Positions 29,044 through 29,498 of a stretch of 33,323 nt of DNA are shown here, one piece after another (within the stretch, counting starts at the first letter, position 1; every line of letters begins with the position of its first letter). The position numbers and the translations under genes are program-made. The stretch covers positions 1 through 33,323 of the forward strand of contig JAITCM010000041.1 in the NCBI GenBank assembly GCA_031283085.1, in the 5' to 3' direction. The notes under the pieces are model-generated. The model was not told the origin of the DNA. It worked only from the letters and a program-made list of their open reading frames with translations, and ran no database searches. This stretch comes from Chitinispirillales bacterium. Lineage in GTDB: Bacteria > Fibrobacterota > Chitinivibrionia > Chitinivibrionales > Chitinispirillaceae.

Positions 29044-29346
29044 GTGTTGACGACGTTAGGATTGGCGGTGGTAGCGGTTATGGTTGTGGCGTTGCTGACG
29101 ACGTACGTCTGGTGGCTGTCCGCCCCGCGCGGCGCATGGCGCGTCCAACCCGTCAATTCCGCGGATGATGATTCCTGTTTTTTTGCGCGTCGCTATGGGG
29201 GGCGCCCTATTACAGATGCAATAAATAACCAATGCCGTATACGCGCAATTTCCCGCAATTCAGCAGGCCATAACCCCCCCCCCCCCCCCCCCCCCCCCCC
29301 CACACACACAATTTATAGCCTTGTTTGGGGCGTATATGCCCATTAA
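29044..29346 (+). CDS. Putative small single-pass membrane protein whose frame crosses a poly-C tract
   Basis: GTG 29044 preceded by GAGAGAGG (spacing about 12). The 100-residue product begins with a clear transmembrane helix (LGLAVVAVMVVALLTTYVWWL) and a hydrophilic part (SAPRGAWRVQPVNSADDD). It then has nine consecutive prolines encoded by the 28-nt C tract, and ends with THTIYSLVWGVYAH. The helix plus the promoter argue for a gene; the C-terminal part is less protein-like. A slip in the tract would change the C-terminus: one alternative register stops almost at once, and the other stays open to about 29590. I do not recognise the family. Confidence 0.4.
   Translation: MLTTLGLAVVAVMVVALLTTYVWWLSAPRGAWRVQPVNSADDDSCFFARRYGGRPITDAINNQCRIRAISRNSAGHNPPPPPPPPPTHTIYSLVWGVYAH
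29274..29301 (+). repeat. Poly-C tract of 28 nt followed by a CA dinucleotide run
   Basis: Twenty-eight consecutive C residues are followed by a short CA repeat ending near 29310. Such long homopolymers are prone to slippage in replication and to sequencing error, so the exact length should be treated as uncertain. It lies inside the small membrane ORF and about 200 nt upstream of the large FISUMP gene. Confidence 0.95.
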
Positions 29347-29375
29347 ATCAACGAAAACACATTGGGGAGACATTT

Positions 29376-29424
29376 TTGACTCCACCGCGACGACACGCTC
29401 TAAACGCGCTAAAAACCGCGTTTA
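29376..29424 (+). promoter_or_regulatory. Possible promoter overlapping an inverted repeat upstream of the large FISUMP gene
   Basis: TTGACT (29376-29381), 17 nt, TCTAAA (29399-29404). A perfect 8-bp inverted repeat (TAAACGCG, 8-nt loop, CGCGTTTA; 29401-29424) covers the -10 edge and the expected start point, as an operator would. The -10 is weak compared with the TATATT boxes elsewhere, so this is tentative. Confidence 0.3.
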
Positions 29425-29498
29425 TGGGCTTATAAGTTTTTCCGCATTGGCGAAACCAATTCCCATAACACGTAATAATAATGAAAGGAGTTTGCAGT

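Follow-up and report, generated by a model that had tools for sequence, protein, structure and literature searches.

Large repertoires of contingency loci are best known from host-adapted pathogens. In Neisseria and Helicobacter, surface and LPS genes carry poly-C or poly-G tracts within the coding sequence, where frameshifts turn the genes ON and OFF, and porA, opc, fim and the treponemal tpr genes are examples of contingency of the promoter type. The poly-C tract analysed here is similar to the coding tracts of Neisseria and Helicobacter in that a C/G homopolymer is found in an ORF, the register would set the product, surface functions are concerned and there are many loci per genome. However, the ORF in question encodes a short membrane peptide about 200 nt upstream of a surface gene. 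From the end of the tract to the start codon of that gene (ATG 29499) there are 197 nt and the long register is out of the gene's frame, so this is not a coding tract in the classical sense.

The tracts of T. pallidum tpr/tp0126 and N. meningitidis porA/opc act at promoters, flanking or spacing their elements (PMC7864442). Those are also homopolymers located 5′ of outer-surface genes, with many copies per genome, but in our case strong promoters are found 160–440 nt further upstream and the tract seems to be transcribed. A promoter spacer would have −35 and −10 boxes on either side of the tract at about 17 bp in the ON state; no such pair flanks the tract in the window, while two loci in another genome (G002) could qualify. 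The nearest case of a homopolymer located in a leader is tlpB-hp0102 of H. pylori, in which a variable G-repeat in the 5′ mRNA leader is read by the small RNA RepG (PMC8295292). There too the homopolymer is in the leader and away from the RBS, but our tract is made of C and not G, sits inside a leader ORF and is proposed to act by register rather than by length. Finally, in the GeneTack survey of conserved translational coupling, phase variation and coupling were kept as separate classes (PMC3711429). Our locus resembles conserved coupling and leader-peptide control in that the stop of the upstream frame is co-located with the downstream start, and differs from the classes of the survey in that a phase-variable tract would control the coupling. 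In the open-access literature we found no paper on phase variation in Fibrobacterota and no description of a phase-variable leader ORF with coupling. As a contingency locus the tract belongs to a known kind, and the leader-ORF variant is apparently new, with an architecture that differs from both the classical promoter type and the in-gene type.

Layout of the C28 locus

The window, by which we mean the whole stretch of 33,323 nucleotides that was analysed, is contig C24 of a 2.58-Mb genome in 144 contigs (a Chitinispirillales MAG, Fibrobacterota; G000). By glutamyl-tRNA synthetase, its closest relatives with a name are Chitinispirillales/Chitinispirillia MAGs. From the sample-style names of these MAGs and the Rfam Termite-leu motif in a congener we infer that this is a termite-gut lineage. 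A preliminary description of the window had reported a poly-C tract of 28 nt inside a small transmembrane ORF, a good promoter reading into it, and three registers giving three different C-termini, one of them extending past the start of a large FISUMP gene. Each of these elements is present in the sequence, at the following positions:

28908..28937, + strand: sigma-70-type promoter TTGACA-18-TATATT (11/12 matches), 366 nt before the tract
29028..29033, + strand: Shine-Dalgarno sequence GAGGTG of the leader ORF
29044..29273, + strand: N-terminal part of the leader ORF, with a GTG start and a hydrophobic segment (about 29056–29124), then polar
29274..29301, + strand: poly-C tract of 28 C, with CCC read as Pro in every register
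29302..29346, + strand: post-tract part of the leader ORF as assembled (n=28)
29302..29590, + strand: tail of the leader ORF at n=27 or 30, open beyond the start of the surface gene
29302..29498, + strand: leader separating the tract from the surface gene, homologous to post-tract leaders in G007 and elsewhere in G000
29483..29490, + strand: Shine-Dalgarno sequence GAAAGGAG of the surface gene
29499..32306, + strand: surface protein of 935 aa, with a signal peptide, LRR_5 (BspA-type LRR, aa 671–751) and Fib_succ_major/FISUMP (aa 772–933)

The C28 run occupies exactly 29274–29301 and is flanked by ccataa on the 5′ side and acacacac on the 3′ side. Under a first-order Markov model 9e-13 C/G runs of at least 28 are expected in the window and only 1.3e-10 in the 2.58-Mb genome, so C28 is not a chance run. 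The leader ORF stops at 29318 with n=26/29, at 29346 with n=28 or 31 and at 29590 with n=27/30. The last is the only open register at this locus and takes the end of the ORF 92 nt beyond ATG 29499, while the assembled n=28 is closed, with its stop 152 nt before this ATG. A run beyond chance, three registers with three ends and the association with a surface function are the marks of a simple-sequence contingency locus. As read from the sequence, a change in length would alter the leader product, with one register reaching the next gene and a putative effect on its expression.

Poly-C tracts of the genus and the genes that follow them

With both strands counted, the genome contains 42 C runs of 10 or more and 32 of 14 or more, compared to 0.02 of the latter expected (first-order Markov). 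It contains no A run of 14 or more, and the whole genus has seven. Within the genus, seven genomes out of eight, that of the window included, have 7 to 32 C runs of 14 or more each; such runs are absent from most other genomes of the family and order that were sampled, and present in genus g4 and in one genus of family f7. These tract counts are lower bounds and the lengths are uncertain, since many tracts are found at contig ends. In three genomes (G004, G005 and G038; L125–L139, L325–L343) the break at such ends is nearly always from the upstream flank into C and rarely from C into the downstream flank, and some contig ends at poly-C carry C-rich nonsense tails. The breaks look like a strand-biased sequencing or assembly effect.

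For the analysis of architecture we used 1–4 kb of sequence flanking about 100 tracts, 67 of which were assembled through; the tests were devised post hoc and the paralogous loci are not independent of each other. Genus-wide, 61 of the 67 assembled-through tracts are intergenic. Among next genes less than 500 nt away, 39 share the strand of the C run and 5 are on the opposite strand (binomial p=1.4e-7). The distance from tract to start codon, with gene starts called by a simple script, is 140–310 nt in 30/40 cases (median 237). The next genes are exported-like in 29/41 cases, compared to 38/99 of the other neighbouring genes (p=7e-4). The domains found after tracts are FISUMP, LRR_5, CsgG-like, InlB B-repeat, fn3 and OMP-barrel, and these genes have mosaic modules in common. 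FISUMP is a very expanded surface family in the genome of the window: the FISUMP protein has about 98 matches across its 2.58 Mb, and these include multi-domain ORFs as long as 1046 and 1700 aa. The closest paralogue of the window gene in the genome (L064, about 63–66% identical) has a C13 tract 242 nt upstream.

Promoters, leader ORF and the open frame

Promoters of the quality seen in the window are expected 1.1 times in 1.1 kb and one was found, so the count alone is not above chance. Over the genus, the interval from the upstream gene to the tract contains 17 strong sigma-70 sites (≥10/12) on the + strand and 8 on the − strand, compared to 2.7 in Markov sequence, and only 2 are found from the tract to the gene. 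In the bins 200–400 nt upstream of tracts there are 11 on the + strand and none on the − strand. As a class, strong promoters are enriched 160–440 nt upstream of tracts, and the window promoter, 366 nt before its tract, fits this placement. Judging from these consensus matches, the tract is most likely transcribed, within a long leader.

Could the tract nevertheless belong to the promoter of the surface gene? It would then lie in or beside this promoter and its length would set the −35/−10 spacing or the distance to an activator. Consistent with this, 13/94 tracts have an exact TTGACA within the 40 nt that precede them (about 2.5 expected), −35 scores are raised upstream of tracts (p=0.006), and two G002 loci (L155 and L164) have the order TTTACA/TTGACA, tract and a TATAAT-like element, with 17-bp spacing at about C9–C11. 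However, there is no −35-like site near the window tract, the downstream −10 scores are not above composition (p=0.77), strong promoters are upstream of the tracts (160–440 nt) and not at them, and in L288, where the upstream motif is shared but the tract is C6, no pairing at 17 bp results. We consider this explanation unlikely. The tract within the −35/−10 spacer as a general rule, considered on the basis of TTGACAAAATGAGAAATA|Cn in G007 and G000 copies, was rejected, as it is contradicted by the −10 scores, the C6 of L288 and the upstream promoters. As a separate observation, the string TTGACAnnATGAGAAAT is found directly before tracts in G007 and G000 copies of the element (L117, L116, L120, L110, L040 and L054). 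It is enriched in the genus, mostly in G000 and G007, with 36 matches compared to 4 for the reversed pattern, and at L119, together with a TATAAT 17 bp away, it makes up a divergent promoter of canonical form.

At 26/81 tracts (32%) we find an upstream ORF that has an RBS, is hydrophobic at its N-terminus and remains open into the tract, compared to 0/81 on the opposite strand, 0.3–0.6% of Markov sequences and 1.3% of segments 400–700 nt upstream. These ORFs start 92–230 nt before the tract, with ATG in 20/26 cases; examples are MVLATLCSSAAVAVLLPTARGQDDRRGEVAGPAY-PPPPP (L043) and MLTALALPVTILLILPLILSATRTRLWDV...RKY-PPPPP (L110). The leader ORF of the paralogue L064 has the same V/M-L-T-T-L context at its start as that of the window. 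The strict hydrophobic ORF is absent before about two thirds of tracts, and the codon-position bias of leader ORFs is weak (0.196/0.208/0.235). The leader ORF of the window has no homologue in the genus and a negative hexamer score, and on these grounds could be regarded as spurious, a view that did not survive when the whole class was tested against controls. In G038, which belongs to a second family of the order, nine paralogous tracts each form the end of an RBS-led ORF '...CTALYFILMNNKVREGS'; nearly all of its indels are multiples of three, the exceptions being next to the tract, and its second codon positions are the least variable. With the strict cut-offs a hydrophobic leader ORF is found in 4/23 and 1/7 cases outside the genus, so replication of the class there is real but modest.

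It is conceivable that the membrane peptide itself is the switched product, with the surface gene expressed independently from its own Shine-Dalgarno sequence. The recurrence of the hydrophobic ORF with its RBS and the in-frame indels in G038 would agree with this, as would the good Shine-Dalgarno sequence of the surface gene and the post-tract tails that differ between registers. We regard it as rather improbable, since it leaves unexplained why tracts track exported genes and why the frame from tract to gene is open without amino-acid conservation.

This open frame is a property of the leaders as a class. In 28 of the 35 leaders of ≥130 nt, one frame or more runs open from the tract to ≤40 nt from the gene start, and 13 have two, compared to 4/35 on the opposite strand and 19/82 leaders of other genes (p=2e-8 at ≥180 nt). 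The open frames end around the gene start, often in ATGA or TAATG overlaps. Paralogous leaders have a conserved post-tract stretch in common, with substitutions spread evenly over codon positions (0.266/0.308/0.293) and many indels that break the frame. A post-tract protein domain ('FIAFLGGYMPxKSTISHRGDIF') was therefore rejected in favour of nucleotide homology, and it would be the openness of the frame, without the peptide, that is under selection, if anything is. The paralogue L064, with C13, is in its open register by hand calculation. At 15 loci a leader ORF could be assigned and one or more frames are open; the assembled register enters an open frame in 2 of these, compared to 8.3 expected (P=6e-4). 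Assembled tract lengths may be wrong, since contig ends are frequent at tracts. Should the open frame be the ON state, most loci as assembled would be OFF, or else the sign would be reversed.

A post-transcriptional rheostat, in which the C tract acts via RNA structure, a G-rich small RNA or Rho loading and length matters instead of register, has a precedent in RepG of H. pylori acting on a G-repeat (PMC8295292). In its favour are the probable transcription of the tract, leaders that for the most part fold somewhat better than shuffled sequences (z from about −1.0 to −3.6) and the scarcity of G in the 20 nt that follow tracts. However, covariation supporting a leader structure is negligible (1/13 pairs) and the open-frame result favours translation, which makes the rheostat quite improbable in our opinion. 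A conserved structured RNA leader was also rejected, with no Rfam family on the leader and hardly any covariation (the same 1/13 pairs). Separately, the Rfam Termite-leu motif is found near two poly-C leader copies in G007 (L117 544–620 and L170 1186–1262).

The register as a putative switch

On balance we find it somewhat more probable than not that the tract works as a contingency locus placed within a leader ORF, with the register determining whether ribosomes get to the surface gene. The preliminary description had already pointed to a contingency locus. Its structural side is strengthened, since promoter, membrane ORF and tract each recur at tens of tracts, and in part in the second family of the order, while the switching itself is deduced from this arrangement. 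The architecture is seen directly in the sequence, and from it we infer slippage, transcription through the tract, and coupling together with its sign.

In the proposed mechanism a transcript would start from the promoter at 28908, and its first ORF (29044 on) would produce a short single-span membrane peptide that enters the C tract as prolines. Replication slippage would alter the C count. With n=27/30, that is in one register of three, translation would carry on across the leader, which lacks stops in this frame, as far as the surface-gene start, where the arriving ribosome may open or activate initiation, via translational coupling or because the mRNA is shielded from polarity. In both remaining registers the ribosome would halt 17–45 nt past the tract, leaving about 150–180 nt untranslated before the gene, with low expression as the predicted outcome. 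At some loci two registers, not one, would bring ribosomes to the gene start. Each genome would in this manner toggle some 30 surface genes independently.

A wider proposal, for which and against which we see about equal grounds, is an order-wide regulon in uncultured termite-gut Fibrobacterota, with dozens of mosaic adhesin-like genes per cell, each independently poly-C-switched via leader-ORF coupling. What is found is about 30 long tracts in each 2.6-Mb genome, placed before surface adhesin-like genes, in a lineage of uncultured symbionts of the insect gut. If the proposal is true, stochastic surface switching would be a major strategy in a gut symbiont, exerted at the level of translation. 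It would also help to account for the poor assembly of these genomes and for the ease with which tract-bearing loci are missed.

That the tracts are sequencing or assembly artefacts, a concern raised in the preliminary description, is hardly credible: many are at contig ends and some then run into C-rich nonsense, but interior tracts recur at homologous sites of paralogous copies, where the flanks on either side are conserved, position, strand, gene distance and architecture are maintained in several species, and A runs are not inflated.

A tandem-duplicated locus in G002 (L157/L158 on C87, 96% identity over 630 bp) has C-rich tracts that are both 49 nt long and differ in interior substitutions. 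With equal total length and such substitutions the duplicates are uninformative on slippage, for which they had been considered as evidence. In a sister species, considered for a direct comparison of tract length, the corresponding locus (L194, gltX 86% identical) contains the response-regulator and gltX genes with no upstream FISUMP gene or tract.

The same comparison bears on a neighbouring locus of the window. At 24824–27104 on the − strand a HEPN domain (aa 4–120) is fused in frame to glutamyl-tRNA synthetase, and an MNT nucleotidyltransferase gene is found directly upstream of the fusion. In L194 the response-regulator and gltX genes are adjacent, without the HEPN-MNT pair. Hence a HEPN-MNT toxin-antitoxin-like pair has apparently been inserted between the response-regulator and gltX genes.
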